Shown here in pieces: positions 38,348 to 61,567 of a stretch of DNA of 64,000 bases. The DNA is from Pseudomonas sp. MAG733B (GTDB taxonomy: Bacteria; Pseudomonadota; Gammaproteobacteria; Pseudomonadales; Pseudomonadaceae). A program made the translations under genes and the position numbers. The number at the start of each line of letters is the position of its first letter. Within the stretch, counting starts at the first letter, position 1. The stretch lies in assembly GCF_036884845.1 (NCBI RefSeq), contig NZ_CP145732.1, positions 2,852,001-2,916,000 on the forward strand. The letters are read 5' to 3'. Under the pieces are notes generated by a model. The model ran no database searches. It was given only the letters and a program-made list of their open reading frames with translations, and had not been told where the DNA came from.

Positions 38348-38465
38348 GATGACCTCACACAGTCGGCAGAAGGGTCGCAACAAAGGCCTATGCAATTGCC
38401 ATGCAAATGCTCATCAAGCTTCTGCTGTCCTCCTGCAACCCCCGTATTACGGCCTCTCGCGCTTT

Positions 38466-38481
38466 CGGCACAGTGCTTGCG
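38466..38481 (+). promoter_or_regulatory. Sigma-54 promoter of the transglycosylase gene
   Basis: CGGCACAGTGCTTGCG has GG and GC exactly ten bases apart and matches the TGGCAC-N5-TTGC consensus except for the first base. It lies 71 bases before the start codon. A G4/C4 palindrome (38507-38519) lies between promoter and gene. Confidence 0.65.
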
Positions 38482-38506
38482 TATGGCTGATAAACGACCG
38501 GCCATT

Positions 38507-38530
38507 GGGGCATTACCCCCATTTTTCGGG
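38507..38530. promoter_or_regulatory. G4/C4 palindromic region near the transglycosylase gene
   Basis: GGGGCATTACCCC (38507-38519) and the overlapping CCCCCATTTTTCGGGG (38515-38530) resemble the palindromes upstream of the oxidase and receiver promoters, but here lie downstream of the -12 element. They might serve the divergent gspG promoter or act at a distance. Confidence 0.35.
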
Positions 38531-38552
38531 GCCGGGCAGGGGAGACAGAGCT

Positions 38553-39161
38553 ATGAAAACTCTCACCACAGGAATGCTCGGCTTGATGCTGCTGGCCGGC
38601 GTCGTTCAGGCCGATGTGTTCGTTTCCGTGGACGCCAAGGGCAACTTCGTCCTGTCCAATGTCCACCGCCCCGGTCGCCACTATGAACGGGTGATTCGTG
38701 AGGCCGAGGCGACGGTGGTCAGCCTCGACCAGCAGCCGCAAATGATCGCCGCGCGACCCTATGCCGAGCTGGTATCCAAAGCCGCCACCGACAATCAGTT
38801 GCCGGCCGCGCTGTTGCACGCGGTGATCCAGACCGAGTCCAGCTACAACGCCAGCGCCGTATCGCCCAAAGGCGCCGGTGGGTTGATGCAGTTGATGCCC
38901 GACACCGCCCGCGAGATGGGCGTGAAAGACGTCTACGACCCCAAGGCCAACATCCAGGGCGGCGCCCGCTACCTCAAACGCCTGATGACGATGTTCGACA
39001 ACGACATTGCCCTCGCCGTGGCGGCCTACAACGCCGGGCCGCAAGCCGTTCTCAGCCGTGGCGGAGTGATCCCGCCGTTCGCCGAAACCCAGCGCTATGT
39101 GCCCAGCGTTTTGCGCCAATACCGGCGCTTGCAGGGGCTGGCGGCGGATGCCCCGTTGTGA
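38553..39161 (+). CDS. Lytic transglycosylase (SLT domain)
   Basis: The 202-residue protein has a signal peptide (about 1-20), a short DUF4124-like segment (FVSVDAKGNFVLSNV), and an SLT domain. The catalytic Glu is in IQTESSYNASAVSPKGAGGLMQLMP, in two conserved parts, and AVAAYNAGPQAV follows. Such enzymes open peptidoglycan so that envelope machines can be built. Its place between gspG and the oxidase, with a sigma-54 promoter, suggests it serves this secretion system. GGGAGA precedes the ATG. Confidence 0.9.
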   Translation: MKTLTTGMLGLMLLAGVVQADVFVSVDAKGNFVLSNVHRPGRHYERVIREAEATVVSLDQQPQMIAARPYAELVSKAATDNQLPAALLHAVIQTESSYNASAVSPKGAGGLMQLMPDTAREMGVKDVYDPKANIQGGARYLKRLMTMFDNDIALAVAAYNAGPQAVLSRGGVIPPFAETQRYVPSVLRQYRRLQGLAADAPL

Positions 39162-39294: not shown

Positions 39295-39310
39295 TGGCAT
39301 GCAGATTGCT
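39295..39310 (+). promoter_or_regulatory. Sigma-54 promoter of the oxidase operon
   Basis: TGGCATGCAGATTGCT fits TGGCAC-N5-TTGCW with one mismatch and correct GG-N10-GC spacing. It lies 57 bases before the preferred ATG. Confidence 0.75.
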
Positions 39311-39366
39311 CAAAGGGTTTTGTCGAGAATTATTCCCTGTGAGCACCCACAGTGAGGCCCGTGATC

Positions 39367-47366: not shown

Positions 47367-48020
47367 ATGAAGCGATTTGCACACCGTGGACTGCTGACTC
47401 TGTGTCTGTTGGCGGTTGGTATCGGCCAGGTTCTGGCTCATTCAACCGATGAGCACGCCGGCCACACCCCGGCGAAAAGTGCCAGTTCGGAAAGCGCCCA
47501 GGTCAAGTTCGCCGACGTGGCGTTGGTGGACCAGAACGGCAAGACCGTACGCCTGGAAAAAGACCTGGTCAGCAACAAGATCGTGGTCATGAGCTTCATC
47601 TACACCAGTTGCACCACGGTGTGCCCGGTGGTGTCGTCGATCATGGGCAAGGTGCAGAAACAGCTGGGCGCACGGGTCGGCACCGAAGTGCAACTGGTGT
47701 CGATCAGCATCGACCCGCAACGCGACGACGCCAAGCGCCTGAACGACTACGCCCGCACCTTCCAGAACGGCCCGGGCTGGAGCTGGCTCACCGGTTCGCC
47801 GCAGTCGGTCAACGAAACGCTCAAGGGCCTTGGCAGCTTCAGCGGCGACTTCAAGAACCACCAGCCGCTGATCCTCGTGGGCGACGGCAACAGCCGCCAC
47901 TGGACTCGCTACTACGGCTTCACCGACCCGATGGTGCTCAGCCGTGAAGTCGAGAAACTCAGCGGCCAGCGCAACGCCCACGCCAAGCACACTGCCATCG
48001 CCATGGAGCATCAACCATGA
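47367..48020 (+). CDS. SCO1/SenC family copper chaperone, first copy
   Basis: The 217-residue protein has a signal peptide and a thioredoxin-like domain with the copper-binding pair Cys82 and Cys86 in IYTSCTTVCPVVSS and a later ligand His in NHQPLILVGD. SCO proteins deliver copper to oxidases or act as thiol reductants. Here it should metallate the multicopper oxidase. An N-terminal His-rich segment (HSTDEHAGH) may add copper sites. Its stop overlaps the next start as ATGA. Confidence 0.9.
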   Translation: MKRFAHRGLLTLCLLAVGIGQVLAHSTDEHAGHTPAKSASSESAQVKFADVALVDQNGKTVRLEKDLVSNKIVVMSFIYTSCTTVCPVVSSIMGKVQKQLGARVGTEVQLVSISIDPQRDDAKRLNDYARTFQNGPGWSWLTGSPQSVNETLKGLGSFSGDFKNHQPLILVGDGNSRHWTRYYGFTDPMVLSREVEKLSGQRNAHAKHTAIAMEHQP

Positions 48021-48652
48021 AAGCGCTCGCCCTGATCTTCCTGACGATGTGCTTCTGCATCATCAGTTTCCTGGCCTTTTCCCATGAGCAGCATGAGCAA
48101 GCGGCGCCTGCCACAGCGCCGGCAGCGGTCGCAGCGGCGCAACCGGCGGGCGGAACGCGTGATGCCAAAACCTGGTTCACCGACACGCCGTTGCAGGACC
48201 AGAACGGCAATACCCTGCGTTTCTACAGCGACGCGTTGCAGAACCGCGTGGTGCTGCTCAATGTGATTTTCACCAGTTGCACCGATGCCTGCCCGTTGAT
48301 CACCCAAAAGCTCAAGGAAGTTCGTGAAGTGCTGGGCGACAAGGCGGACGGCATCACCTTTATCTCCCTTACCAGTGATCCGCAGCGGGATACTCCTGCG
48401 GTACTCAAGGCTTACACCTTGAAGCAGGGCGTCGATGGGCCCCACTGGCTTTTTCTTACCGGCGACAAAGCGCAAATGGACGTGGTCCTGGCCCGCATCG
48501 GCCAGATCATTCCGTCCCCCGAGCAGCACTCCACGCAGTTGATTGTTGGCGATGTGGCCAACAAACGCTGGAGCAAAATCCGTCCCGACGCCCCGGCCGC
48601 CGCCATTGCCCAGCGCTTGCAGTTGCTGACAATGCCCGTGGCTGGCCGCTGA
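48017..48652 (+). CDS. SCO1/SenC family copper chaperone, second copy
   Basis: The 211-residue protein has an N-terminal membrane anchor and CxxxC as Cys88 and Cys92 in FTSCTDACPLIT. The third ligand is probably His in PSPEQHSTQLIVGD. It is paralogous to the preceding protein and coupled to it. Two SCO proteins in tandem suggest division of labour, for instance one reducing and one loading copper. Confidence 0.9.
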   Translation: MKALALIFLTMCFCIISFLAFSHEQHEQAAPATAPAAVAAAQPAGGTRDAKTWFTDTPLQDQNGNTLRFYSDALQNRVVLLNVIFTSCTDACPLITQKLKEVREVLGDKADGITFISLTSDPQRDTPAVLKAYTLKQGVDGPHWLFLTGDKAQMDVVLARIGQIIPSPEQHSTQLIVGDVANKRWSKIRPDAPAAAIAQRLQLLTMPVAGR

Positions 48653-48661
48653 GTCCGCACC

Positions 48662-50203
48662 ATGAAAATCGCCCTGATCCTCGGCCTGCTCGTGCTCAGC
48701 CTGACTGCCCAGGCCCTGCCGCTGAGCCCCAGCGAAAGCGCCGGCAAACGCCTGTACCGCGAGGGCGTGTCAGCCAGTGGTGAGCCGATCATGGCGCGGA
48801 TCGGGGCGGCGGGCACTGTGCTGCCGGCCACCAGCCTGCCGTGTGCCAACTGCCACGGCGCCGATGGGCTCGGGCGTCCCGAGGGCGGGGTGCGACCACC
48901 GGACCTGACCTGGTCGCGGCTGACCAGCACCTATGGCCAGCAGCAGATCAACGGGCGCACTTACCCGGCGTATACCGACGGCACTTTGGCCAGGGCGGTG
49001 CAGGAGGGGCGCGATCCCGGCAACAATCGACTCGACCCGGCCATGCCGAAGTTCGTGCTGTCGATGAACGATCAACGCAACCTCACGGCGTACCTCAAGC
49101 GCCTGGCCGATGACCGTGATCCGGGCCTGAGCCCCGACAGCCTGCATCTGGGCACATTGCTGCCGAGTACCGGGGCGTTGAGCGAGGAGGGCGTCACGGT
49201 GGCGGCGGTGCTAAGGGGGTGTATCGCGCGCATCAATGAGGCGGGCGGGATTCATGGCCGGCAGTTGCGCCTGACCATTCTCGATCCCGGTCCGGATCGG
49301 GCCAGCGCCGAGCAGGCACTGAGCCAACTGATCGAACAGGAACAGGTGTTCGCCCTGATCGCTCCGCTGGTGCCGGTGCTCGACTCGGAGTTGGCGCCGC
49401 GCCTGGAGCAGGCCGGTGTGCCTTTGATCGGACCTTTGTCATTGCAAGGCACGAACCCGATCAGCCGGCAGATTTTCGAACCGTTGCCGGGGCTGCGCGA
49501 GCAGATGATTGCCCTGGCCAACTATGCGGCCGCGAGCCTGCGAGTGTTGCAGGGGCCGACGCTGATCGCCTACCCGGACGAGCCCGGCCAGCGGCTGGCA
49601 GCAGAGAATCTCGCCAAGTACCTGCAAGACAACGCCTGGCAGAAAGTCCGTCTGCAAATCTATCAATCGGCGCAGGACGAATTGCCGTTGGGTTCGCGCT
49701 CGGTGTTTTACCTGGGCAATAGCGGCGGTTTCAGTCACCTGGCCGAGCGATTGAACACAGCGGGGCAGGTGCCTTACCTGTTTGCCGCATCGAATCAGGT
49801 GGCGGGTGATTTGCTGCAAGTGCCCAGTGGTTTTTCGCGACGGGTGTTCCTCGCGTATCCGTTCGTGCCCAGTGACTGGACGATCGCCGGTCGCCTGGCC
49901 TTGACCCAGTTGCGCGAACGCCAGCGACTCGGTGGCGAGCACGCGGTCCTGCAAGTCGGCGCGTTCAGTTCGATGATGCTGCTCAGCGAAGGCATGAAGC
50001 AGTCCGGGCGCGATGCCAGCCGCGAGAAACTGGTCAACGCGCTGGAAGGCCTGCATGACTTCGATACCGGCCTGACCCCGCTGATCAGCTTCGGACCGGG
50101 CCGCCGCCAGGGCCTGAGCGGTGCCCATGTGGTCACGGTGGACCTGCCCGACCAGCGTTTCTATCTGGTTGCCCCTTATAAACCCATTGCCGCCATGCCC
50201 TGA
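48662..50203 (+). CDS. Cytochrome c fused to a periplasmic substrate-binding domain
   Basis: The 513-residue protein has a signal peptide and a class I cytochrome c domain with LPCANCHGADG (haem Cys61, Cys64, His65) and a probable Met ligand in DPAMPKFV. Beyond residue 150 follows a type I periplasmic-binding domain (Peripla_BP_6/LivJ-like) with LGTLLPSTGALSEEG and INEAGGIHGRQL. Such a fusion is uncommon. In the mof operon a cytochrome c gene follows the oxidase, so electron acceptance from the oxidase side is plausible. The binding lobe may sense a ligand or serve as scaffold. Confidence 0.85.
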   Translation: MKIALILGLLVLSLTAQALPLSPSESAGKRLYREGVSASGEPIMARIGAAGTVLPATSLPCANCHGADGLGRPEGGVRPPDLTWSRLTSTYGQQQINGRTYPAYTDGTLARAVQEGRDPGNNRLDPAMPKFVLSMNDQRNLTAYLKRLADDRDPGLSPDSLHLGTLLPSTGALSEEGVTVAAVLRGCIARINEAGGIHGRQLRLTILDPGPDRASAEQALSQLIEQEQVFALIAPLVPVLDSELAPRLEQAGVPLIGPLSLQGTNPISRQIFEPLPGLREQMIALANYAAASLRVLQGPTLIAYPDEPGQRLAAENLAKYLQDNAWQKVRLQIYQSAQDELPLGSRSVFYLGNSGGFSHLAERLNTAGQVPYLFAASNQVAGDLLQVPSGFSRRVFLAYPFVPSDWTIAGRLALTQLRERQRLGGEHAVLQVGAFSSMMLLSEGMKQSGRDASREKLVNALEGLHDFDTGLTPLISFGPGRRQGLSGAHVVTVDLPDQRFYLVAPYKPIAAMP

Positions 50204-50216
50204 CCGGAGGCCGAAC

Positions 50217-51170
50217 ATGAAACTCAACACTGTGCTGATCCTGTTGACGTTATGGGTGCCCGCTGCGTTTTGCAGCAATGGCCAGGTGGCGGCGCGGGTC
50301 AATGGCGAGGAAATTTCGCAGATGCGCCTCGAGCGTTATTTCGCCGAATACCTGGAAGACCAGGGCCGGGCAGTCGCCAGCATCCGCAGCCCCAGCGCGT
50401 ACAAGCAGTTGCGCAAGGCGGCACTGGACGCCTTGATCGACAAGGAGCTGCTCTGGCAGGAAGCGGTCAAGCGCGGCGTGGTGATCAGCGATGCCACGGT
50501 GCAAAGCCAGGTCGACCAGACCCGTCAGGCGATGGGCGGCGCGCAAGTGTTCGCCCGGCGCCTGGAAGACGCCGGTTTCGATGAGGCGGCCTACATCGAA
50601 TACACCCGCCGTGACCTGACGGCCCAGCAGATGTTTGCCGAACTGACCAAGGTCACCGAGCCGGACGAAAAACAGGTGCGGGCGTTTTTCGAAGAGCACC
50701 GCGCCGAGATGAAGAGGCCCGAGGAGATCCAGGTCAGGCATATCCTGATCAAAGTGCCTCAGGGCGCGGAGGCTTCCACTGTTTCATCCGCGAGACTACG
50801 CTTGGAGGCAATGCGTACGCGTATCGCTCAGGGCGAGGACTTTGCCAGCGTCGCCCGGAGCGGTTCCGAGGACGTTTCGGCCAGCCAGGGCGGTGATTTG
50901 GGCTATTTTCCACGGGGTCGCATGCTGCCGGAGTTCGACGCGGCAGCCTTTGCCCTGGCGCCCGGCGCGGTCAGTGAACCGGTGCGCACGGCGGTGGGAT
51001 GGCATTTGATTTATTTACAGAACCGAATGGAGGCAGCCGATGTCACAGAGGAGCAAGGACTTGACATGGTTCGGGCTTACCTTGCCCGACAGAAACAGGT
51101 TCAGGCGCGTCTACAGGTTCTGGCGCAGCTGCGTTCCAGCAATCGGATCGAACGGATTGACGACGATTGA
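50217..51170 (+). CDS. Periplasmic peptidyl-prolyl isomerase (PpiC/SurA type)
   Basis: The 317-residue protein has a signal peptide (MKLNTVLILLTLWVPAAFCS), a SurA-like N-terminal helical domain and one parvulin domain (about 185-280) with VRHILIKVP, SASQGGDLGYFPRGRMLPEF and VGWHLIYLQ. GGAGG precedes the ATG. It ends the oxidase operon. It should help fold the very large oxidase in the periplasm, matching the isomerase gene of the mof operon. Confidence 0.9.
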   Translation: MKLNTVLILLTLWVPAAFCSNGQVAARVNGEEISQMRLERYFAEYLEDQGRAVASIRSPSAYKQLRKAALDALIDKELLWQEAVKRGVVISDATVQSQVDQTRQAMGGAQVFARRLEDAGFDEAAYIEYTRRDLTAQQMFAELTKVTEPDEKQVRAFFEEHRAEMKRPEEIQVRHILIKVPQGAEASTVSSARLRLEAMRTRIAQGEDFASVARSGSEDVSASQGGDLGYFPRGRMLPEFDAAAFALAPGAVSEPVRTAVGWHLIYLQNRMEAADVTEEQGLDMVRAYLARQKQVQARLQVLAQLRSSNRIERIDDD

Positions 51171-51234: not shown

Positions 51235-51309
51235 GGTGGGGTATGTGGACGAAAAGGCATTGCTTTTAAATTCAAGGACATGAATACATAAAATTACCGG
51301 CGCTCAGCC

Positions 51310-51325
51310 TGGCATGAAGTGTGCG
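51310..51325 (+). promoter_or_regulatory. Sigma-54 promoter of the secretion operon
   Basis: TGGCATGAAGTGTGCG keeps GG-N10-GC spacing; the -12 element is GTGC in place of TTGC. It shares TGGCATG with the oxidase promoter and lies 68 bases before the TTG start. Confidence 0.65.
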
Positions 51326-51392: not shown

Positions 51393-51926
51393 TTGTTAAA
51401 CAAAGTACTGGTTGTTGACGACGAACAACTTCTTGCAGAAAACCTCCAGGGTTACCTGCAGGCGCAAGAGTTGGACGTCCGGATTGCTCACGACGGTGCG
51501 CAAGGAATCGTTGAAGCTAACGATTTCGCACCCGATGTGATGGTGTTCGATTACCGCTTGCCCGATATGGAAGGCTTTCAGGTGCTCGATGCCGTCCGCC
51601 AGAACAGGAATTGTCATTTTGTGCTGATCACAGGGCACCCCACCGCAGAGGTTTGCGAAAGGGCCCGGCAACTGGGAGTCAGCCACATCCTGTTCAAACC
51701 GTTTCCGTTGGCGGAATTGGCCCGGGCAGTGCTGGATCTTCTAGGGAAACAGCGCGAACCCAGAGCGGGCATGAGCACATCCGAAGGATTCGTCGAACGA
51801 CGCCAGAGCAGGACCGAAAATTTCCCGCTGCAGTTGTACGACGGTAGTTGGGTGCTTGCAGATCGCCGACGAAGTACCACGGCCTCCACAGCGCCAGACG
51901 ACGAACAATTGCTCACCGGGGAGTAG
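51393..51926 (+). CDS. Stand-alone response-regulator receiver protein
   Basis: The 177-residue protein has a receiver domain (residues 1-120) with the acidic pair Asp9-Asp10, phospho-acceptor Asp53 in VMVFDYRLPD, Thr80 and Lys102 in FKPFP. The basic, Ser/Thr-rich C-terminal tail has no DNA-binding or enzyme domain. It starts at a TTG with AAGGAG six bases upstream. As first gene of the secretion operon it may tune secretion by protein contact, for example with GspE. No histidine kinase is encoded nearby. Confidence 0.88.
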   Translation: MLNKVLVVDDEQLLAENLQGYLQAQELDVRIAHDGAQGIVEANDFAPDVMVFDYRLPDMEGFQVLDAVRQNRNCHFVLITGHPTAEVCERARQLGVSHILFKPFPLAELARAVLDLLGKQREPRAGMSTSEGFVERRQSRTENFPLQLYDGSWVLADRRRSTTASTAPDDEQLLTGE

Positions 51927-52010
51927 TGGCGCGACAAGACGTTCCGGCCCCCGCCGAAATAGCTCGCCGCGCCGACAGGGCTCAAAGCCCCGGGCGTTGG
52001 AGAGCAAGCC

Positions 52011-53717
52011 ATGGACCGTCTATCACTTGTCGTCGATGCTGTGCCGCTGGACTGTGTACCGACCCGGTTTACCAGTGAGCAATTGGCTCAGGCGCGGTCG
52101 CTGGCCGCCACTTCCGGCGAGCGGGTTCTGCAAGCCCTCGGTGAGCTCTGCGAACTGGCCCCCATGCCCTTCATCCAGTGCCTGGGCGCTACCCTGCATT
52201 ACCCGGTGCTCGACACCGACAGCCTGTTTCAAGCCACGCCGGTTTTCGATCGGGTCACCCTGGCCCAATGCCTCAAGCGCGAATTCACCCTGCTGCGTCA
52301 CGACGACGCGGTCATCGGCGTGTTCGCCGACCCCTTCGACACGGCCCGTCTGGCCTGGATCGACGATTGCCTGCACGGCGCGCCGTTGTACCTGGTGCAC
52401 GCCGACGACCTGAAAGCCTACCTGGCCCGCCACGAAGAAAGCTTCCACGCGGTGGAGTCGCTCAACGCCCAGTCTGACGGCAGCACCGAAATCGATACCC
52501 TGCAAAGCCTGTCCTTGACCAGCATCAGCGAAGACTCCAGCGTCGTTGTGAAGCTGGTCAACTCGACCCTGTACGACGCCTTGAAAATGCACGCCAGCGA
52601 CATTCACCTGGGCACCACCGGCAGCGGTCTGGTGATCAAGTACCGCATCGATGGCGTGCTCAACAACATCAGCAAGATCCAGGGCAACGAGTTCGCCGAA
52701 CAGGTGATTTCCCGGGTCAAGGTCATGGCCGAACTGGACATCGGCGAAAAACGCGTGCCCCAGGATGGTCGCTTCAAGATCGGCATCAGCGGCCGGCAGA
52801 TCGACTTCCGGGTGTCGATCATGCCGAGCATTTTCGGTGAAGACGCCGTGCTGCGGGTGCTCGACAAACAGGACCTCGCCGACAAGGTCTGCGGTGTGCA
52901 ATTGCAGGCCCTGGGCTTCGAAGAAGAAACCCTGCGCCAACTGCGCCGCCTGGCCGCCGAACCCTACGGCATGGTGCTGGTCACCGGCCCCACCGGTAGC
53001 GGCAAGACCACCACGCTGTACGCGATGATCACCGAAATCAATCACGGCGTGGACAAGATCATCACCATCGAAGACCCGGTCGAATACCAACTGCCGGGCG
53101 TGCTGCAAATCCCGGTCAACGAAAAGAAAGGCCTGACCTTCGCCCGTGGCCTGCGCTCGATCCTGCGTCACGACCCGGACAAAATCATGGTCGGTGAAAT
53201 CCGTGATCCGGACACCGCACAGATCGCCGTGCAATCGGCACTCACCGGTCACCTGGTGTTCACCACCATTCACGCCAACAACGTGTTCGACGTGATCGGC
53301 CGTTTCACCCAGATGGAAATCGACCCTTACAGCCTGGTCTCCGCGCTCAACGCGGTACTCGCCCAGCGCTTGATTCGCCTGGTCTGCGTCAGCTGCAGCG
53401 CCCCTTACACGCCGAACGAAGAAGAGCTGGAAGCCTCCGGCCTCGATCCGCAAAACGTCGCGCACTACCAGTTCGTGCATGGCAAGGGCTGCGGCCATTG
53501 CCGTGGCACCGGTTACCGCGGGCGCAGTGCGATTGCCGAGCTGCTGCACCTGGATGATGAGCTGCGGCAAATGATCGTCGAGCGCCAACCCATTTCGAAA
53601 ATCAAGGCCCACGCCTGCAAACGTGGCTTGCGCCTGTTGCGCGAATCCGCGCTGGAACTGGTGCAACAAGGCCGGACCACTCTCGAGGAGATCAATCGTG
53701 TCACTTTTATCTCGTGA
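52011..53717 (+). CDS. gspE: Type II secretion/type IV pilus assembly ATPase GspE
   Basis: The 568-residue protein has an N1/N2 region (about 1-160) and a catalytic domain. Walker A is GPTGSGKTT at 326-334, with the Asp box near IITIEDPVEYQ and Walker B in DKIMVGEIRD. The His box is TGHLVFTTIHANN, and the zinc tetracysteine motif is CVSC and CGHC. It powers pseudopilus growth at the inner membrane with GspF. It is followed by a PilM-like gene overlapping by 20 bases. Confidence 0.94.
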   Translation: MDRLSLVVDAVPLDCVPTRFTSEQLAQARSLAATSGERVLQALGELCELAPMPFIQCLGATLHYPVLDTDSLFQATPVFDRVTLAQCLKREFTLLRHDDAVIGVFADPFDTARLAWIDDCLHGAPLYLVHADDLKAYLARHEESFHAVESLNAQSDGSTEIDTLQSLSLTSISEDSSVVVKLVNSTLYDALKMHASDIHLGTTGSGLVIKYRIDGVLNNISKIQGNEFAEQVISRVKVMAELDIGEKRVPQDGRFKIGISGRQIDFRVSIMPSIFGEDAVLRVLDKQDLADKVCGVQLQALGFEEETLRQLRRLAAEPYGMVLVTGPTGSGKTTTLYAMITEINHGVDKIITIEDPVEYQLPGVLQIPVNEKKGLTFARGLRSILRHDPDKIMVGEIRDPDTAQIAVQSALTGHLVFTTIHANNVFDVIGRFTQMEIDPYSLVSALNAVLAQRLIRLVCVSCSAPYTPNEEELEASGLDPQNVAHYQFVHGKGCGHCRGTGYRGRSAIAELLHLDDELRQMIVERQPISKIKAHACKRGLRLLRESALELVQQGRTTLEEINRVTFIS

Positions 53718-54501
53718 GCAATTTGTCGCCGTCCTCGGCGCCAGTGGTGTCGGCCTCGGCCAGCGCAAGGGCAGTCAAACCCTGTGGCTGGGTAGCGTCG
53801 GCTACATCGACGAAGGCTTTCAGGCCTGGACCGTGGCCCTGGAAACCCTCGACCGTTTGCTGGGCGAACATGCCCGCGCCGGTGCGGAATTGACCGTGGT
53901 GATCTCCGGGCACTTCAGCCGCTTTTGCCTGGTGCCCTGGAGCGAGCAGATCAGCAGCCCCGAAGAACTGCGCGGGTTTGCCCAACTGTGCTTCGAAGAC
54001 CTCTATGGTGTCCCGAGTCAACCCTGGAACCTGGTGCTCTCGGCCGAACCTGCCGGCTACGACCGGGTCGCCACGGCGCTGCCGCAAGACCTGCTGGAAC
54101 GCCTGCGGACTCTGGTCACGGGGCGTGGCTTGCGCCTGCGTTCGGTGCAGCCGTACCTGATGGCGGCCTTCAACCACTTCGATAAAAGCTTCGACGCCGG
54201 AGATTTCCTCTTCGTGGTCGCCGAGCCGGTGCGCAGTGTGATGCTGGTGGCGCGCGAAGGTCGCTGGGCGGCGGTGCGTTCGGTGGGCAGCAGCGACAGC
54301 GATGCCGCGCTGACCGCGCTGATCGGCCGCGAAAGCCAGTTGCAGGCGTCCACCAGCGAACGGCCACTGAATGTTTACCTGCACGCCCCGGCGCGCATCG
54401 ACTCGCACCCGGACGTTCCCGGTGTGCACCTGCGGACCCTTGAAGAGGACCGGACAGCCGTACACGATTGCCTGTACGTCATGTCCCGGGCGGTGGCCTG
54501 A
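53698..54501 (+). CDS. PilM/GspL-like cytoplasmic actin-fold protein
   Basis: The 267-residue protein reads like the actin/ASKHA-fold cytoplasmic part of GspL or PilM. It has an N-terminal beta-rich part, SGHFSRFCLVPW, and a second half with DFLFVVAEPVRSVMLVAREG. It has no membrane helix, unlike full GspL. The GTG at 53698 has GAGGAG seven bases upstream and lies inside gspE. With the next two genes it makes a PilM-PilN-PilO-like platform, an arrangement closer to type IV pili and MSHA than to classical gsp operons. Recognition is by order and fold pattern. Confidence 0.7.
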   Translation: MSLLSREQFVAVLGASGVGLGQRKGSQTLWLGSVGYIDEGFQAWTVALETLDRLLGEHARAGAELTVVISGHFSRFCLVPWSEQISSPEELRGFAQLCFEDLYGVPSQPWNLVLSAEPAGYDRVATALPQDLLERLRTLVTGRGLRLRSVQPYLMAAFNHFDKSFDAGDFLFVVAEPVRSVMLVAREGRWAAVRSVGSSDSDAALTALIGRESQLQASTSERPLNVYLHAPARIDSHPDVPGVHLRTLEEDRTAVHDCLYVMSRAVA

Positions 54502-54502
54502 C

Positions 54503-55048
54503 ATGCGCGCCCTGATGCTCGACTTTCAGCCACGCCGCCGCTCGACGCCTCTGGGCTGGAGCCTGCTGGCCGCAGGCGTGATGCTGGCGCTGACCTGCAT
54601 GGTGATTCAGCAACACCTCAGCGGGGAGGCCGAACAACAGCAAGGTCACCTGCAAACCGCGCAACGGGTGCTCACCGGCGACACCGGCAGCAAGGTCAGC
54701 CTGACCCCGGCGGAAACCCGCGAACAGGCACAGAACCTGGCCGAGATGCGCAAGGTCTCGCAGCAATTGCGCCGCCCTTGGGAACGCCTGTTCGCCACGC
54801 TCGAATCCATGCAACGCGACAACATTGCCTTGCTGACCCTGACCCCGGATGCCCGCAAAGGCCAGGTGCGGATCAGTGCCGAGGCGCGGGACCTGGACGC
54901 CATGCTCGACTTCCACCGCCGCCTCGAAGCCAGCGACGAGCTGTCCGATGTGTCGCTGCTCAGCCACGAAATCGTCGCCAACGTGCCGGAACACCCGGTG
55001 CAATTCAACTTGTCGGCTACCTGGGAGATTGGCGATGCAAATCCCTAG
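54503..55048 (+). CDS. PilN-like inner-membrane protein
   Basis: The 181-residue protein has a short cytoplasmic N-terminus, one membrane helix (about residues 18-38, LGWSLLAAGVMLALTCMVIQ), a coiled region and a ferredoxin-like periplasmic domain. This is the PilN/GspL-C pattern. It begins one base after the PilM-like stop and overlaps the next gene by 14 bases. It likely couples the PilM-like protein to the PilO-like protein. Confidence 0.72.
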   Translation: MRALMLDFQPRRRSTPLGWSLLAAGVMLALTCMVIQQHLSGEAEQQQGHLQTAQRVLTGDTGSKVSLTPAETREQAQNLAEMRKVSQQLRRPWERLFATLESMQRDNIALLTLTPDARKGQVRISAEARDLDAMLDFHRRLEASDELSDVSLLSHEIVANVPEHPVQFNLSATWEIGDANP

Positions 55049-55583
55049 ATTGATCGTCCACGAATACCTGCAAAGCCTCGGCGTTCCGGGCCTGGCAGGG
55101 TTGGCGGTGCTGGTTGTGGCACTGACTTACGGCCTGGCCGGTTTGCTGCCGGACTGGCAATCGTTGCAGCACCTGAGCCAGCAGACCCGCGAAGCCAGCG
55201 AGTACCTGGCCAAGGTCGAAGACGGCACCGTGGCCGCGCCAGTGGTACCGCAGCGCCAGCTCGATGATTTCCGCAGCAAGTTGCCGTCCCAGCCGCAGGC
55301 CACCGTGGCCATCGACAAGATCTACGCGCTGGCCGCTCAGGAGCGCATCACCCTGGCGCGAGGCGAGTACTCGCTGGGCATCGATCCGAAAACGCACCTG
55401 GCCCGTTATCAGATTCTGCTGCCGGTGCGTGGCAGCTACCCGCAACTGCGGCGCTTCCTGCACGCCTTGCTCGGCCAGTTGCCGGCGGTGGTGGTGGAGG
55501 ACGTGGAGTTCCAGCGCAAGAAGATCGCCGACACCGACCTCACCGGCCGGATCCGCATGACCCTTTACCTGTCGAGGTCATGA
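55035..55583 (+). CDS. PilO/GspM-like inner-membrane protein
   Basis: The 182-residue protein has one membrane helix near residues 18-40, a coiled stretch and a ferredoxin-like domain with QATVAIDKIYALAAQ and RYQILLPVRGSYPQLRRFLHALL, the PilO-type pattern. The ATG at 55035 lies inside the preceding gene. It overlaps the next start (ATGATGA). It should pair with the PilN-like protein in the inner-membrane platform. Confidence 0.72.
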   Translation: MQIPRLIVHEYLQSLGVPGLAGLAVLVVALTYGLAGLLPDWQSLQHLSQQTREASEYLAKVEDGTVAAPVVPQRQLDDFRSKLPSQPQATVAIDKIYALAAQERITLARGEYSLGIDPKTHLARYQILLPVRGSYPQLRRFLHALLGQLPAVVVEDVEFQRKKIADTDLTGRIRMTLYLSRS

Positions 55584-56092
55584 TGAATACCAAACGCGTA
55601 GTGGGTTGGGTGGCGTTCTTCGGTGTTGCGGCGGCGCTGATCTGGTTGCCCGATTACTTCAAGCAGGCCGATGACAGTGACGTGGAAGTCGCCGCCGTCG
55701 CCACGCCTGCCAAAGGCAAGACGTCGTCGGCCGCCAAAGCCGCCGCAGCGGTAGCGCCGATCAAGGACCTGAGCCCGGCCGGCGACCTGTTCGCCGCCCG
55801 CAGCTGGAAGGCTGCGCCAACGCTTGCCAGCGTCACCGAACAACCCGTCAACGTTGCTCCAGTCGTGCAGGCCCCCACTGCACCGCCGATGCCTTTCCAG
55901 TTCATTGGCCGCATGGATGACCGCACCGATCTGCAAGTGTTCTTGCAGAGCGGCGAAAAGATCTACGTCGTGCGCAAAGGGGATGTGATCGACGAAACAT
56001 GGAAGATCGAGGGGATTTCCGATCTGGAACTGAGCCTGGTCTATTTGCCTCTGCATTTGTCCCAGACGTTGTCTGTGGGGAGCGCGCAATGA
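55580..56092 (+). CDS. GspC/PilP-like protein with HR domain
   Basis: The 170-residue protein has one N-terminal membrane helix, an Ala/Pro-rich linker and a small C-terminal beta domain. That domain (PFQFIGRMDDRTDLQVFLQ, then EKIYVVRKGDVIDETWKIEGI) is the homology region that binds the secretin in GspC and PilP. It precedes the secretin gene with an ATGA overlap. It likely links the inner platform to the outer-membrane channel. Confidence 0.78.
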   Translation: MMNTKRVVGWVAFFGVAAALIWLPDYFKQADDSDVEVAAVATPAKGKTSSAAKAAAAVAPIKDLSPAGDLFAARSWKAAPTLASVTEQPVNVAPVVQAPTAPPMPFQFIGRMDDRTDLQVFLQSGEKIYVVRKGDVIDETWKIEGISDLELSLVYLPLHLSQTLSVGSAQ

Positions 56093-57921
56093 ACAAGTCC
56101 CGTTTGCTGATGAGCCTGTGCCTTTGTGCAGGGCTGGCCGCATGCAGCTCGGCGCAGGTCGCCAAGGAAGAAGCCTCTGACCTGATCGAACAGGGTCAGT
56201 ATGAAGCCGGGCTGGCCCGGATCGAGGAAGGGTTGCGCGAAAACCCTCGCGACACCGAACTGCACATTGCCCTCAACACCGCCCGTGCCCGCGCGATCAC
56301 CGCGCTGCTGACCCAGGCTGAGATGGACCGCGCCCAGCGCGATTTCGCTTCGGCGCGCATGGGTTACGGACGGGTGCTGACCATCGAGCCGAACAACCGC
56401 CGCGCCCAGGACGCCATGCGTCAACTGGAACATATGCGCAGCCTCGATGAAAAACTCGAACTGGCCCGTGGCGATCTGCGCCGGGGCGACATCTACGGGT
56501 CCGAGCGCCAAGTGCGGCAGATCCTCGAACTGGACCCGAACAACGAAGGCGCGCTGGAACTGCAAGGCAACATTCGCCTGGTGCAGAGTCGCAACGTGAT
56601 TCCTTATCCACAACTGCGCACTCGCCTCGACAAACCGGTGACCCTGGAATTTCGCGACGCCAACCTGAAAACCATTTTCGAAGTGCTGTCCCAGGTTGCC
56701 GGTTTGAACTTCATCTTCGACAAGGACCTGCGCCCGGACATGAAAGCCACGATCTTCGTGCGTGACGTGCGCATCGAAGACGCCGTGGAACTGCTGCTGC
56801 AACAGAACCAGTTGCACCAGAAAGTGGTGAACGAAAACACCTTGCTGATCTACCCGGACTCGCCGCAGAAGCTCAAGGATTATCAAGAGCTGGTGATGCG
56901 CACCTTCTACCTGACCAGCATCGATGCCAACACCGCGCTGAACATGATCAAGACCATGCTCAAGACCCGCGACGTGTTCGTCGATGAACGCCTAAACACC
57001 CTGACCATGCGCGACACCGGCGACGCCGTGCGCATGGCCGAGAAACTCCTGCAATCGCAAGACCAGTCCAACCCTGAAGTGGTGCTGGAAGTGGAAGTGA
57101 TGGAAGTCGCCACCCAGCGGATTCTCGACCTGGGCCTGCAATGGCCGAACACCTTCGGTGTGGTCAACAGCGATGGTTCGGCGGTGACCATTCTCGATCA
57201 GCTCAAAGGCATCAACTCCAGCCGGATCACCATTTCGCCGTCGCCACAGGCCAAGATCAACGCGCAGGACAAAGACATCAACACCCTGGCCAGCCCGGTG
57301 ATCCGCGTCAGCAACCGCGAGCAGGCGCGCATCCACATCGGTCAGCGCGTGCCGATCATCAGCGCCACTTCGGTGCCGTCGACTCAGGGACCGGTGATCA
57401 CCGAAAGCGTGACTTACCTCGATGTCGGTTTGAAACTGGAAGTGCAGCCAACCGTGCACCTGAACAACGAAGTGGCGATCAAAGTGGCGCTGGAAGTCAG
57501 CAACGCCACACCGCTGGAACCGACCCGCCAGGGCACGATTCCGGTCCAGGTCGATACCCGCAACGCGCAAACCACCTTGCGCCTGCACGACGGCGAAACC
57601 CAGATCCTTGCCGGCCTGATGCGCAACGACCATGGCAGCACCGGCAACAAGATTCCTGGCCTGGGTGACATTCCCGGCCTGGGACGGTTGTTCGGCAGCA
57701 ACAAGGACGACGTCAGCAAATCCGAGCTGGTGTTGTCGATCACGCCACGGATCGTGCGCAACCTGCCGTACCAGAGCCCGTCGGACATGGAGTTCCCTAC
57801 CGGCACCGAGACCAGCATGCACATCCAGGCGCCGGATCGCTCGAAGGTCGAAGTCGAAGAGGTTCGGGCCAATGGCATGAGCGCACCGATCGCTACCACC
57901 GTTACCGTCGGGAAGCCTTGA
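56089..57921 (+). CDS. gspD: Lipoprotein secretin (GspD/PilQ/MshL-like)
   Basis: The 610-residue protein has a lipobox LAAC (Cys19) and TPR-like helices (about 25-170). An STN/N0-type domain (about 180-250) is followed by an N1/NolW domain and the secretin domain (about 350-580) with VPIISATSVPSTQGPV and IPGLGDIPGLGRLFGS. The helical N-terminal extension and lipid anchor recall MshL and the secretins of some type IV pili. It may self-pilot to the outer membrane. It forms the exit channel for the type II-like machine. Confidence 0.92.
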   Translation: MNKSRLLMSLCLCAGLAACSSAQVAKEEASDLIEQGQYEAGLARIEEGLRENPRDTELHIALNTARARAITALLTQAEMDRAQRDFASARMGYGRVLTIEPNNRRAQDAMRQLEHMRSLDEKLELARGDLRRGDIYGSERQVRQILELDPNNEGALELQGNIRLVQSRNVIPYPQLRTRLDKPVTLEFRDANLKTIFEVLSQVAGLNFIFDKDLRPDMKATIFVRDVRIEDAVELLLQQNQLHQKVVNENTLLIYPDSPQKLKDYQELVMRTFYLTSIDANTALNMIKTMLKTRDVFVDERLNTLTMRDTGDAVRMAEKLLQSQDQSNPEVVLEVEVMEVATQRILDLGLQWPNTFGVVNSDGSAVTILDQLKGINSSRITISPSPQAKINAQDKDINTLASPVIRVSNREQARIHIGQRVPIISATSVPSTQGPVITESVTYLDVGLKLEVQPTVHLNNEVAIKVALEVSNATPLEPTRQGTIPVQVDTRNAQTTLRLHDGETQILAGLMRNDHGSTGNKIPGLGDIPGLGRLFGSNKDDVSKSELVLSITPRIVRNLPYQSPSDMEFPTGTETSMHIQAPDRSKVEVEEVRANGMSAPIATTVTVGKP

Positions 57922-57923
57922 TC

Positions 57924-58397
57924 ATGAACGCCTCGCAACGCGGTTTTACCTTGATCGAAGTCGTGGTGACGCTGTCTCTGATCGGCCTGCTGGCCGGCAT
58001 GGCTGCGCCGCTGACCGAGACCGTGGTGCGCCGGGGCAAAGAGCAGGAACTGCGTACTTCGCTGTACCAGATCCGCGATGCCATCGACGCCTACAAACGG
58101 GCATTCGATGCGGGCTACATCGAGAAGTCGCTGAACAGCAGCGGCTACCCGCCGAACCTGCAAGTGCTGGTCGAAGGCGTTCGTGACGTACGCAGTGCCA
58201 AGGGTGCCAAGTTCTTTTTCCTGCGGCGCGTGCCTCACGACCCGCTGGCGGCGGTCAAGCGTGATGACGAAGGCGGCTGGGGCTTGCGCTCCTACGACAG
58301 CACCGCTGAAAACCCGCGGGATGGGCAGGACGTCTTTGACGTTTATTCCAAGGCCCGCGGCAAAGGCCTCAACGGCATCGCCTACCGGGAGTGGTGA
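57924..58397 (+). CDS. Pseudopilin (type II secretion/type IV pilin-like), first of three
   Basis: The 157-residue precursor has a seven-residue leader and cleavage site RG|FTLIEVVVTLSLIG with Glu5. The C-terminal domain has a GspG/PilE-like beta region. The ATG at 57924 is preferred over an in-frame TTG at 57918. It starts just after the secretin stop. It belongs to the set of minor or major pseudopilins needing an external prepilin peptidase. Confidence 0.85.
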   Translation: MNASQRGFTLIEVVVTLSLIGLLAGMAAPLTETVVRRGKEQELRTSLYQIRDAIDAYKRAFDAGYIEKSLNSSGYPPNLQVLVEGVRDVRSAKGAKFFFLRRVPHDPLAAVKRDDEGGWGLRSYDSTAENPRDGQDVFDVYSKARGKGLNGIAYREW

Positions 58398-58401
58398 GCA
58401 T

Positions 58402-58776
58402 ATGCGTCGGGAAAAGGGTTTTACCCTACTGGAACTGATGGTGGTCATGGCAATCATCGCGACGCTGATGACCATCGCCTTGCCGCGCTATTTCAACAGC
58501 CTGGAGGCCTCGAAAGAGACCACCTTGCGCCAGAGCCTGTCGGCGATGCGCGAAGCACTGGACCACTACTACGGCGACACCGGGCGTTATCCCGATTCCA
58601 TCGAACAACTGGTCGAGCAGCGTTACCTGCGCAACCCACCGATGGACCCGATTTCCGAACGCAAGGACGCCTGGGTCATGGTTGCACCGCCTGAAGGCGT
58701 GGCCGGCGGCGTTGCCGATATCAAGAGCGGTGCCACAGGGAGGGCGCGTGATGGCAGCCTTTATTCCGAGTGGTAA
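58402..58776 (+). CDS. Pseudopilin, second of three
   Basis: The 124-residue precursor starts MRREKG|FTLLELMVVMAIIA, a six-residue leader with Glu5 after cleavage. The globular part is short, with YYGDTGRYPDSIEQLVEQ, resembling GspG/PilA-like minor pilins. It lies four bases after the previous stop and overlaps the next gene by about 26 bases. Confidence 0.85.
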   Translation: MRREKGFTLLELMVVMAIIATLMTIALPRYFNSLEASKETTLRQSLSAMREALDHYYGDTGRYPDSIEQLVEQRYLRNPPMDPISERKDAWVMVAPPEGVAGGVADIKSGATGRARDGSLYSEW

Positions 58777-59290
58777 GCCTGCATCAGAGGACGGCTTCAC
58801 CTACCTGGGTGTGCTGTTCCTGATCATGGTGATGGGCATGGGCCTGGCCAGTGCCGGCGAGTTGTGGTCCACCGCCTCGCGCCGTGACCGCGAACGCCAG
58901 TTGCTGTGGGTCGGCACTCAATACGCCCAGGCGCTGCGCAGCTACTACCGCAGTTCGCCCGGCTTGGCCCAGTACCCGAAAGAACTGGCCGACCTGCTGC
59001 AGGACGAGCGTTTTCCGAATGCCAAGCACCACCTCCGCCAGCTGTACCCGGACCCGATTGGCGGCGGCGAATGGTTCCTGATGCGCGGCTTCGACGGACG
59101 CATCACCGGCCTCAGCAGCCCGTCCACCGACAAGCCGCTGAAGCAGGCGGACTTTCCCACTCAATGGTCGGATTTCAACGGCATGGCCAGCTACAAGGAC
59201 TGGCAGTTCGTAGCCGAGAAAGCCTTCCTCGATGGCGCATCAGGCCCGGTCAAAGGCCCGTCGCAATCGCCACAGGCGGTGCAGCCATGA
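58751..59290 (+). CDS. Pseudopilin without Glu5, third of three
   Basis: The 179-residue precursor has a long leader ending DG and the hydrophobic helix FTYLGVLFLIMVMGMGLASA. Position 5 of the mature helix is Gly, not Glu. Loss of Glu5 is typical of the tip pseudopilin GspK, though this protein is shorter than usual GspK. It may cap the pseudopilus. The ATG at 58751 overlaps the previous gene; its stop overlaps the csgE start as ATGA. Confidence 0.8.
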   Translation: MAAFIPSGKPASEDGFTYLGVLFLIMVMGMGLASAGELWSTASRRDRERQLLWVGTQYAQALRSYYRSSPGLAQYPKELADLLQDERFPNAKHHLRQLYPDPIGGGEWFLMRGFDGRITGLSSPSTDKPLKQADFPTQWSDFNGMASYKDWQFVAEKAFLDGASGPVKGPSQSPQAVQP

Positions 59291-59670
59291 ACCGCTTCTG
59301 CCTGGCGTTGATCCTGGTGTTGAGCACTTCGGTGGCCGCCGAAGAAGACGAAATGCTCGGGTTCATCATCGACGACACGATCTCGCACATCGGCCACGAC
59401 TTTTACTACTCGTTCAGTGAACGCCTGCGGGCCACCAGCCCGATGGATTTCAACCTGGTGGTACGCGAACGACCTTCGGCTCGCTGGGGCAGCCTGGTGA
59501 CCGTGGAATTTCAACAACGTTTGGTTTACCGGCGTTTCCTGCCGCCGAACACCGTGGAGCTCAAGGACGAGGCTTATGACGCCGCCGACTGGGTACGCGG
59601 GCAGATTGTCCAGCGCAAGCTGGAAGCCTTGTTGCAGGACACCACGGACCTTGAGAGGGACGAACTATGA
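59287..59670 (+). CDS. csgE: Curli assembly chaperone CsgE
   Basis: The 127-residue protein has a signal peptide (about 1-18), then IIDDTISHIGHDFYYSFSERL, NLVVRERPSARWGSLVTVEF and LQDTTDLERDEL. These align by eye with E. coli CsgE (IGHDFY, ERPSARWGS, STGDLAHDE). CsgE is the periplasmic adaptor that caps the CsgG pore and brings substrates. It is fused into the secretion operon by ATGA overlaps on both sides. Confidence 0.93.
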   Translation: MNRFCLALILVLSTSVAAEEDEMLGFIIDDTISHIGHDFYYSFSERLRATSPMDFNLVVRERPSARWGSLVTVEFQQRLVYRRFLPPNTVELKDEAYDAADWVRGQIVQRKLEALLQDTTDLERDEL

Positions 59671-60086
59671 AAACGAAAACGTTCTTGCAGCGCACCGGTT
59701 TGTGCTTGCTCGGGCTGGGCAGCTTCGGCCTGGTCCAGGCCACGGAGCTGGTCTACACGCCCATCAACCCCTCGTTTGGCGGCAACCCGTTGAACGGCAC
59801 CTGGCTGCTCAACAACGCCCAGGCGCAGAACGACTATGACGATCCGGACTTGAAGGACCGCGCCACGCTGACCGGGACCTCGGCCCTGGAGCGCTTCAGC
59901 AGCCAGTTGCAATCGCGATTGCTGGGGCAACTGCTGGACAACATCTCCACCGGCAATACCGGGAGCCTGTCTACAGACGCTTTCATCGTCAACGTCCTCG
60001 ACGACTCAGGGCAACTGACGATTCAAGTGACCGACCGAGCGACCGGTGAAGTGTCGGAAATCAAGGTTAATGGCCTGGCCCCTTGA
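59667..60086 (+). CDS. csgF: Curli assembly factor CsgF
   Basis: The 139-residue protein has a signal peptide ending near VQA and the CsgF hallmark INPSFGGNPLNGTWLLNNAQAQND, in two conserved blocks. A C-terminal strand region with DSGQLTIQVTDRATGE follows. In E. coli the NPxFGGNPxNG segment inserts in the CsgG channel and the rest couples secretion to fibre nucleation at the cell surface. The key motif is intact. It overlaps csgE by four bases and precedes csgG by 30 bases. Confidence 0.94.
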   Translation: MKTKTFLQRTGLCLLGLGSFGLVQATELVYTPINPSFGGNPLNGTWLLNNAQAQNDYDDPDLKDRATLTGTSALERFSSQLQSRLLGQLLDNISTGNTGSLSTDAFIVNVLDDSGQLTIQVTDRATGEVSEIKVNGLAP

Positions 60087-60116
60087 GGGGATTTTGGCTG
60101 ACGGGGAGCAACGGAC

Positions 60117-61013
60117 ATGAAAAAGATAATTTTGCTAGGGATGCTGTTGGCAGCACTTCAAGGCTGCAGCCTGCGCGAGCCGATCGGGGCCGAGCAGGAC
60201 ACCGAAACCCCGACCCTGACACCACGGGCGTCGACCTATTACGACTTGATCAACATGCCGCGACCCAAGGGTCGGTTGATGGCGGTGGTGTATGGCTTCC
60301 GTGACCAGACCGGACAGTACAAACCGACGCCCGCCAGCTCGTTTTCCACCAGCGTCACCCAGGGCGCGGCGAGCATGCTGATGGACGCGATGCAGGCCAG
60401 CGGCTGGTTCGTGGTGCTGGAACGTGAAGGGCTGCAGAACCTGCTGACCGAGCGCAAGATCATCCGCGCCTCGCAGAAAAAGCCCAATACCCCGATGAAT
60501 ATCCAGGGTGAACTGCCACCGCTGCAAGCGGCGAACATGATGCTCGAAGGCGGGATCATCGCCTACGACACCAACGTGAAAAGCGGCGGGGAAGGGGCAC
60601 GCTACCTGGGTATCGACATCTCTCGCGAGTATCGCGTGGACCAGGTCACCGTGAACCTGCGGGCAGTGGACGTGCGCAGCGGCCAGATACTCGCCAACGT
60701 GATGACCAGCAAGACCATCTACTCCGTGGGCCGCAGTGCCGGCGTGTTCAAGTTCATCGAGTTCAAGAAGTTGCTCGAAGCCGAAGTCGGCTACACCACT
60801 AACGAACCGGCGCAGTTGTGTGTGTTGTCGGCGATCGAATCGGCGGTGGGGCATTTGCTGGCGCAGGGGATCGAGCGGCGTTTGTGGCAGGTGGCGGGGG
60901 ACAATTCGGTGTCTACGCAGAACGAGACGCTGGACCGGTATTTGACTCAGGCCAAAGTGGTGCCTGAGGGGTCGGAGTCGGGTTCAGGGTCGGGTTCTAG
61001 TTCGGATGAGTGA
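60117..61013 (+). CDS. csgG: Curli secretion channel lipoprotein CsgG
   Basis: The 298-residue lipoprotein (lipobox LQGC, Cys17) matches E. coli CsgG along its length: LEREGLQNLLTERKIIRA, NVKSGGEGARYLGI, VNLRAVDVRSGQIL and EVGYTTNEPAQLCVLSAIE. CsgG forms a nonameric outer-membrane pore. The constriction loop reads KPTPASSFSTS where E. coli has KPYPASNF, so the eyelet Tyr51 and Asn55 are Thr and Ser while Phe56 is kept. A Ser/Gly/Glu-rich tail ends the protein. No csgA, csgB or csgD lies in the window. Confidence 0.95.
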   Translation: MKKIILLGMLLAALQGCSLREPIGAEQDTETPTLTPRASTYYDLINMPRPKGRLMAVVYGFRDQTGQYKPTPASSFSTSVTQGAASMLMDAMQASGWFVVLEREGLQNLLTERKIIRASQKKPNTPMNIQGELPPLQAANMMLEGGIIAYDTNVKSGGEGARYLGIDISREYRVDQVTVNLRAVDVRSGQILANVMTSKTIYSVGRSAGVFKFIEFKKLLEAEVGYTTNEPAQLCVLSAIESAVGHLLAQGIERRLWQVAGDNSVSTQNETLDRYLTQAKVVPEGSESGSGSGSSSDE

Positions 61014-61059: not shown

Positions 61060-61095
61060 TCCCTGTGGGAGCCAGCCTGCTGGCGATGGCGGCCT
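61060..61095. repeat. Single REP opening the right long repeat unit
   Basis: CCCTGTGGGAGCCAGCCTGC and the following GGCGATGGCGG match the REP at 30051-30079, which opens the left unit. Confidence 0.75.
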
Positions 61096-61118
61096 GATAG
61101 CCGATCGGGATTTTGTTG

Positions 61119-61452: not shown

Positions 61453-61470
61453 GACGGCGTAGGTTGTTTT

Positions 61471-61560: not shown

Positions 61561-61567
61561 GCTTCTC

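Follow-up and report, generated by a model that had tools for sequence, protein, structure and literature searches.

We propose a reading of the operon at 51393 to 61013 in a 64,000-nucleotide stretch of DNA from Pseudomonas sp. MAG733B (contig NZ_CP145732.1; G000:C1:2852001-2916000), which is called the window below. In this operon, running on one strand from a receiver gene (51393) to csgG (61013), the genes of a pseudopilus machine are followed by the curli pore genes csgE, csgF and csgG, and this joining is real and conserved. Since the operon holds two outer-membrane exits, a secretin and CsgG, each of which is found alone elsewhere, we take it to encode two exporters with one purpose: it is likely that they have separate exits and are co-regulated for manganese oxidation, and do not form one composite pore. 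The purpose is most likely to bring an oxidase and an amyloid matrix to the cell exterior at the same time. Positions are given in window numbering unless they are marked with a G handle or with L010, a stretch (2911000-2930000) reaching past the right edge of the window.

The joined operon and its conservation

Among 99 sampled Pseudomonas genomes, counting the window's own, MnxG was found in 34, an orthologous secretin in the same 34 and CsgF in 36, the two additional ones being G020 and G068, in which no McoA and no MnxS2-type match was found at E 1e-100. Orthologous secretins are those of at least 72% identity; relatives at 34-36% in six genomes were kept outside the 34, as was a partial secretin at the end of a contig in G021, which would be the 35th. 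The Fisher value for the co-occurrence is 1.6e-24 with kinship ignored, and relatedness is likewise ignored in the counts of MnxG, secretin and csgF, where only two joint absences are independent. In all 34 genomes csgF lies on the same strand, 1791-2401 bases downstream of the secretin, and in 32 of them MnxG lies 10.4-11.7 kb ahead, the other two being on split contigs. Synteny beyond one strain, whose absence a sequence-only reading of the window had named beforehand as a refutation, is thus found clearly, in many species.

The best 80 of the 177 Pseudomonas loci found with the secretin (the named loci) show the same arrangement: csgEFG follows pseudopilin 3 in 69, one (L141) has a csgE remnant and ten are without csgEFG, two of the ten contigs ending near the pseudopilins and being settled by genome-wide search. 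Together with 33 loci of the genus sample, this gives 102 complete loci. In these, with start codons picked by script, pseudopilin 3 and csgE overlap by 4 bases in 74 and are 4-128 bases apart in the other 28, csgE and csgF overlap by 4 bases in every one, and csgF and csgG are separated by 24-43 bases in 100, the spacing being 11 and 3356 in the other two. Recurring in 74 and in all of the 102 loci respectively, the two overlaps are not due to chance.

In the window, the one-strand operon and the gene order that had been read from the sequence are borne out by Pfam and by the packing. The first gene, for a receiver-domain protein (51393..51926, plus strand as are all genes of the operon; Response_reg PF00072, 2.8e-21), is followed by a gspE/pilB-like ATPase (52011..53717; T2SSE PF00437, 3.3e-125; under the GspE and PilB equivalog cut-offs), a protein in the PilM/GspL position (53698..54501; no Pfam match, order conserved), a PilN-like protein (54503..55048; PF05137, 6.9e-5), a PilO/GspM-like protein (55035..55583; T2SSM_b PF10741, 1e-4, and PilO PF04350, 0.0058), a protein in the PilP/GspC position (55580..56092; no significant Pfam family) and a lipoprotein secretin with a TPR N-terminus (56089..57921; PF00263, 7.6e-40; TPR_14, 2.1e-6; PDB relatives GspD and PilQ; lipobox seen by eye). 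Then come pseudopilin 1 (57918..58397; N_methyl, 2.3e-8), pseudopilin 2 (58402..58776; N_methyl, 6.5e-10) and a pseudopilin-like protein 3, perhaps GspK-like (58748..59290), with a prepilin-like N-terminal GFTYLGVLFLI seen by eye and no Pfam match. The type VIII markers all pass the Pfam cut-offs: CsgE (59287..59670; PF10627, 3.3e-35; 165.7 against a cut-off of 137 for the NCBIfam CsgE equivalog), CsgF (59667..60086; PF10614, 2.3e-31; PDB CsgF, 6.2e-29) and the lipoprotein pore subunit CsgG, encoded by the last gene (60117..61013; PF03783, 1.6e-80; PDB CsgG, 2.2e-82), which is under the PRK15184 equivalog cut-off (300.6 against 505). The overlaps of csgE with pseudopilin 3 (59287-59290), in keeping with the close packing claimed by the sequence-only reading, and with csgF (59667-59670) are both of 4 bases, and csgG follows csgF after 30 bases. 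The labels given by that reading stand for the receiver, gspE, PilN, PilO/GspM-like, secretin, two pseudopilin and CsgE/F/G proteins by Pfam; PilM and PilP are names by position only, and pseudopilin 3 is named by its N-terminus.

Judged by its sequence, the machine is of an atypical type II/type IV-pilus-like kind. It missed the canonical Gsp equivalogs (GspE 495 against 630 bits, GspD 156 against 351, GspF 285 against 424) and those of the type IVa and MSHA pili (PilB 480 against 676, PilQ 146 against 284, MshL 99 against 250), and no Pfam match to GspC or GspL was found among the operon proteins. A consensus scan gave a single promoter-like site, at 51265, upstream of the operon. The terminator-like stems that it gave number 10, shuffles giving 10.6, and carry no weight either way; on the plus strand one lies 3' of csgG (61093-61109) and three lie within genes (54189, 56329, 58195).

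The manganese-oxidation island and its putative shared control

It is noted that the operon lies in a larger island, with the order mnxG operon, machine, csgEFG, curlins, two secreted proteins, mnxS1, mcoA, SCO1, mnxS2 and mnxR, where the mnx and mco names of the last five genes are taken from the gene order in PMC11409713 and not from family models. The gene mnxG, for the giant manganese-oxidising multicopper oxidase of 1952 residues (39352..45210, plus strand), matches the NCBIfam equivalog NF041487 at 3878 against 3100 bits, and this match together with the island context upholds the link to manganese oxidation that had been suggested from the sequence. The range of 51393 to 61013 in that suggestion omits mnxG as well as gspF and gspG (36714-38395, minus strand), which belong to the same system.

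The sequence-only reading had also stated that csgA and csgB are missing, which is true inside the window only. Curlin_rpt matches occur at G000:C1:2916078-2917751 on the minus strand, and the window stops at 2916000. Two curlin genes with the repeat PF07012 (3.7e-22 and 1.4e-19), for proteins of 482 residues (L010:5013-6461, minus strand) and 153 residues (L010:6489-6950, minus strand), lie 12-1949 bases beyond the right edge, convergent with csgG, and were missed because the window ends too early. A curlin locus elsewhere had been named as evidence against the earlier reading; curlins do exist, though in the same island, so that this evidence counts by half only.

In relatives, curlins were sought beside csgG by tblastn and genome-wide in 32 chosen genomes. 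They adjoin csgG in 22 of 33 relatives' loci; of the remaining 11, five are on contigs that end at most 554 bases from csgG and six show none within 8.8-8.9 kb. Among the 69 named loci with csgG, curlins are shown in 40, and the 29 others comprise 18 whose contigs end 155-586 bases 3' of csgG, four holding 1-4 kb more and seven reaching the 6.9-kb flank limit. In the genome-wide search, curlins turned up in each of the 13 MnxG/csgF genomes examined, including the 11 without adjoining curlins, and also in G020 and G068; none turned up in ten csgF-negative Pseudomonas genomes, in G021 and in six non-Pseudomonas MnxG genomes. Curlins are thus present in 36 of the 36 csgF-positive genomes of the 99, the window's genome counted in. 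They lie less than 5 kb from mnxS-type kinases in G015, G089 and G096 and about 20 kb from them in G057, G072 and G081, with csgEFG about 100 kb away in G057 and G072.

The second line of evidence comes from sigma54-type -24/-12 elements. One is located before mnxG (39295..39310, plus strand; TGGCATGCAGATTGCT), and another before the receiver-machine-csg operon (51310..51325, plus strand; TGGCATGAAGTGTGCG, 8 of 11 positions). The former recurs in 20 of 20 other genomes, sampled from 35 MnxG copies, with a match at every one of the 11 scored positions, the sixth being C or T. The latter, TGGCA-N8-GC with at least 8 positions at -77 to -97, was found in 110 of the 111 loci counted out of 113 (L055 and L153 having too little upstream sequence), including the most divergent ones, G027, G042 and G060; it is missing only in L108, a locus that has lost mnxG, and is present in the other nine named loci of that kind. 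Internal controls gave 0/111 for gspE, 0/112 for pilN, 0/113 for gspD, 0/81 for the cytochrome gene, 0/102 for csgG and 9/112 for pseudopilin 2. Since relatives have inherited such elements in common, these counts overstate independence. A plain sigma54 scan of a 78-kb stretch gave 36 sites with at least 9 of 11 positions against 21-34 in ten random sequences; the mnxG and receiver-gene elements are credible because of their position and conservation, not because of this slight excess. A looser test finds an element ahead of the gene of the 512-residue secreted protein (ig512), with which the four-gene curlin unit begins; 12 of 17 loci have it, and in 11 of the 12 it sits at -73 to -75. No TGGCA element was found upstream of csgE, csgG, mnxS1 or mnxS2 in the window's strain, where a TGGCG element with 9 positions lies upstream of mcoA. 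PMC11409713 reports that MnxR is sigma54-dependent and needed for manganese oxidation in GB-1, and from the elements we infer that MnxR may act on the machine-csg operon as well.

The other genes of the island are as follows. To the left of mnxG lie a gspF-like inner-membrane platform protein (36714..37922, minus strand; PF00482, 7.7e-59; NCBIfam GspF as above), a gspG-like major pseudopilin (37913..38395, minus strand; PF08334, 5e-44; N_methyl, 1.1e-9) and a lytic transglycosylase of the SLT type (38346..39161, plus strand; PF01464, 3.7e-29), the true starts of the last two probably being further in. gspF and gspG are split from gspE by the oxidase operon, though one machine should need all of them, and the transglycosylase, from its position, may work with the machine. 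After mnxG, on the plus strand, the operon continues with a beta-propeller protein (45402..47354; PF02239, 1.3e-15; order matching Table 4 of PMC11409713), two SCO1/SenC proteins (47367..48020; PF02630, 1.8e-20; and 48017..48652; PF02630, 6.3e-18), a cytochrome c and periplasmic binding protein (48662..50203; PF13458, 3.7e-26; PF00034, 5.3e-4) and a SurA/PpiC peptidyl-prolyl isomerase (50217..51170; PF00639, 5.2e-25).

Between csgG and the curlins lie a short repeat (61464-61580), whose two strands read as poly Lys-Gly and poly Leu-Cys, a small DUF6124 frame (62209-62568), apparently almost a duplicate of 31027-31383, and a Rhs-like frame seen by eye (62818-63909) with no Pfam match. The position of the repeat may be compared with the stops, 155-586 bases 3' of csgG, of the 18 contigs among the 69 mentioned above. 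The two secreted proteins in a run with the curlins (L010:7011-10810, minus strand) have 754 residues, with bacterial Ig and cadherin-like domains, and 512 residues, with no Pfam family. Their N-terminal parts are alike by eye, and they are possible machine cargo or matrix partners. For the ig512 family, PDB sequences matched only at E 0.02 or worse, and an AlphaFold model from 13 sequences, at a pLDDT (predicted local distance difference test) of 36.7, was not used. Past the curlins, on the plus strand, there follow a histidine kinase, a 936-residue multicopper oxidase, a SCO1-cytochrome c protein, another histidine kinase and a sigma54-type response regulator.

Two proposed exporters, and where the modules separate

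In the proposed mechanism, the pseudopilus machine would carry folded multicopper oxidases (MnxG and probably McoA) over the outer membrane via its secretin, with gspF and gspG from the far side of mnxG completing the gspE machine, and the csgEFG pore would release the unfolded curlins of 482 and 153 residues encoded just downstream. The units would be induced jointly, probably through the sigma54-dependent MnxS/MnxR system, and the cell would lay an amyloid matrix alongside the enzyme that deposits the manganese oxide. More tentatively, these Pseudomonas might possess an amyloid organ dedicated to manganese biomineralisation, in which one MnxR programme might send MnxG and McoA through the machine and long curlins through CsgG, oxidase and fibre coming together at the cell surface and the curli fibre templating or holding the manganese oxide. 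The idea of a mineral-binding fibre, raised earlier from the sequence, is plausible and gains support.

The mnxG and csgEFG modules can be missing together while the machine stays. In ten named loci and G021 (loci L092, L093, L094, L099, L101, L103, L104, L107, L108, L162 and L050), mnxG is gone or a remnant, no csgEFG is present at the locus and the machine genes present there are open. When the whole of the ten named genomes was searched, no intact MnxG was found in any of them, one holding a 68-residue remnant, and nine proved to be without CsgF; G021 has neither MnxG nor CsgF. No csgE remnant was found in these mnxG-loss loci. In L107 a lytic transglycosylase gene (PF01464) stands in the place of mnxG, with no large oxidase frame. 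Two gspG matches of mnxG-loss loci lie in stop-bearing frames, where the stops precede the true start. On the gspE tree, the absence of mnxG together with island csgEFG needs two changes, in two separate lineages comprising 11 genomes, when L141 is omitted, and three when L141 is scored as a loss. Because of the mnxG and operon remnants and of the nesting among csg-positive rows, these joint absences appear to be losses. The mnxG-loss genomes have two mnxS-type kinase matches each, 3 of the 22 with a stop, and carry McoA matches, 2-4 at 69-78% in ten genomes (some being pieces at contig ends) and one at 83% in G477, so the machine may serve McoA-type oxidases. As a side observation, in G480 (L086, P. 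umsongensis DSM 16611; C1:104726-110569) the MnxG match has one internal TAG, either a real change or a sequencing error.

The modules also occur apart from each other. In 5 of the 99 Pseudomonas genomes, csgEFG-curlin loci have no gsp genes in the fetched stretch (G020 and G068, and second copies in G042, G060 and G087). The one in G087 (G087:C4:277256-284952; L044, L045) stands beside a second MnxG, 76% identical and preceded by a sigma54-type element with 11 of 11 positions, and in the CsgG tree, of which only the grouping within Pseudomonas is used because the branches outside the genus are long, its CsgG groups with those of G020 and G068, apart from the island CsgG. In 368 other genomes of the class, the mnxG operon is accompanied by gspE, gspF, gspG and a secretin at the distant MnxG loci of G131, G399 and G252, where csg genes are absent; at the other three non-Pseudomonas MnxG loci the sequence fetched, of which there was little for G398, showed no gsp gene. 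Outside the genus, the csgF loci have curlins and no gsp genes in 5 of the 5 evaluable (of six, L175 on a 3-kb contig being left out). The link between MnxG and gsp genes is thus wider than Pseudomonas, and the addition of csgEFG is seen only in Pseudomonas.

Several observations weigh against our proposal. Eleven genomes retain the machine but not mnxG, and therefore MnxG is not its sole cargo; McoA paralogues, the other candidate, occur in MnxG-positive genomes too. G477 (L162), an mnxG-loss genome, holds CsgF on another contig. L141 (G467) has an intact MnxG and no CsgF genome-wide, with curlins in short pieces, and therefore curli are not indispensable. The ig512 element is absent in 5 of 17 loci, no element stands before mnxS1 in the window's strain, and in G025 the curlins are about 106 kb from the mnxS kinases. 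Outside Pseudomonas, MnxG-like genes occur in 6 of 368 genomes and CsgF in 6 of 368, with zero overlap.

Some of these points favour an alternative in which the modules are neighbours by history only, being inherited on one island with the same promoter type and without functional dependence: L141 keeps MnxG without csgF and csgG, MnxG and CsgF never overlap outside the genus, and the joint absences, of which just two are independent, could be a general loss of accessory DNA. However, the intervening machine is retained in both joint absences, the curlins of G057 and G072 stay near the mnxS kinases and far from csgEFG, and in G087 a different csg lineage stands beside the second MnxG. We thus consider this alternative unlikely.

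By contrast, it was proposed in the sequence-only reading that the pseudopilus machine and the CsgG pore make up one apparatus with shared substrates. The 4-base overlap of pseudopilin 3 and csgE in 74 of the 102 loci and the order fixed in all of them would agree with such a composite exporter. If the two were one apparatus, however, the separate occurrences would be hard to account for: csgEFG-curlin loci lack gsp genes, within the stretches fetched, in five Pseudomonas genomes and in all five evaluable loci outside the genus, the machine occurs without island csg genes in 11 genomes and in the three distant MnxG loci, and the machine owns a secretin, so that there are two outer-membrane exits. 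This proposal is hence abandoned as very improbable.

Least probable of all is that csgEFG exports proteins other than curlins, such as the manganese oxidase or the Ig-like proteins: the CsgG constriction reads KPTPASSF in 101 of 102 island proteins against KPYPASNF in E. coli, its Thr and Ser aligning with what we take, in number and role, to be the constriction residues Tyr51 and Asn55, but stand-alone curli CsgGs also have substitutions at the same places, so nothing is concluded from them, each of the 36 sampled genomes with csgF has curlins, and the CsgG pore passes unfolded chains, for which the 1952-residue multicopper MnxG is unsuited.

Known systems and biological meaning

The machine is probably Xcm, the Gsp-related pathway of P. 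putida GB-1 that de Vrind et al. in 2003 reportedly described as serving the manganese-oxidising factor. Xcm shares with the island machine that it is, by description, a Gsp-like system of Pseudomonas tied to manganese oxidation; the difference is that csgEFG is unmentioned in the descriptions of Xcm that were consulted. A Gsp-like manganese-oxidation system has been reported for KT2440 and WCS358 as well (PMC4509608). As to the mnxG operon, its six-gene order is identical to the one in P. putida GB-1 and in the Pseudomonas strains MS-1 and DSV-1, the last two of which likewise have mcoA-SCO1 between mnxS1 and mnxS2 (PMC11409713). The gene numbers given there, if consecutive, leave 17 unnamed genes from SurA to mnxS1, and there are 17 here too with the Rhs-like frame excluded. 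The main text of PMC11409713 contains none of the words 'csg', 'curli' and 'secretion'.

Like the curli or type VIII system, the island has CsgE, CsgF, CsgG and curlin-repeat proteins; unlike it, csgEFG closes a pseudopilus operon at its 3' end, with a 482-residue curlin, manganese-oxidase neighbours and a sigma54-type element. According to PMC3521004, Pseudomonas curli genes are without csgD nearby, P. stutzeri excepted, and the words 'secretin', 'gsp' and 'manganese' do not occur in its main text. PMC3056050 reports that P. putida has csgEFG and csgAB; it covers both 'curli' and 'mnxG', with csgEFG/csgAB and manganese oxidation in separate sections of what was consulted. The clusters of Geobacter OmpB and Leptothrix MofA resemble the island in having, by description, an extracellular multicopper protein beside an isomerase, SCO1 and a cytochrome c-periplasmic binding protein (PMC5566968), and the main text of that paper has no 'curli' or 'csg'. 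The main texts of PMC11930936, PMC8218464 and PMC9765421 have neither 'csg' nor 'curli'. Among the matches listed, no literature was found that joins csgEFG or curli with a manganese-oxidase secretion machine, an earlier remark in the GB-1 papers being possible; the parts are known singly, and their joining was not found described among these matches. The island machine is also like the atypical type II system that, going by its title, Mehta et al. in 2006 are said to have connected with OmpB.

Finally, we note what the finding means for Pseudomonas. Why bacteria oxidise manganese and how they hold the oxide outside the cell are open questions in the Pseudomonas models. With csgEFG overlapping a manganese-linked machine behind a sigma54-type element of the mnxG kind, the possibility that an amyloid matrix is made together with the oxidase, with fibres that may support the enzyme or the mineral, becomes testable, and the curli of Pseudomonas, mostly reported without a nearby csgD, gain a candidate function and a candidate regulator.

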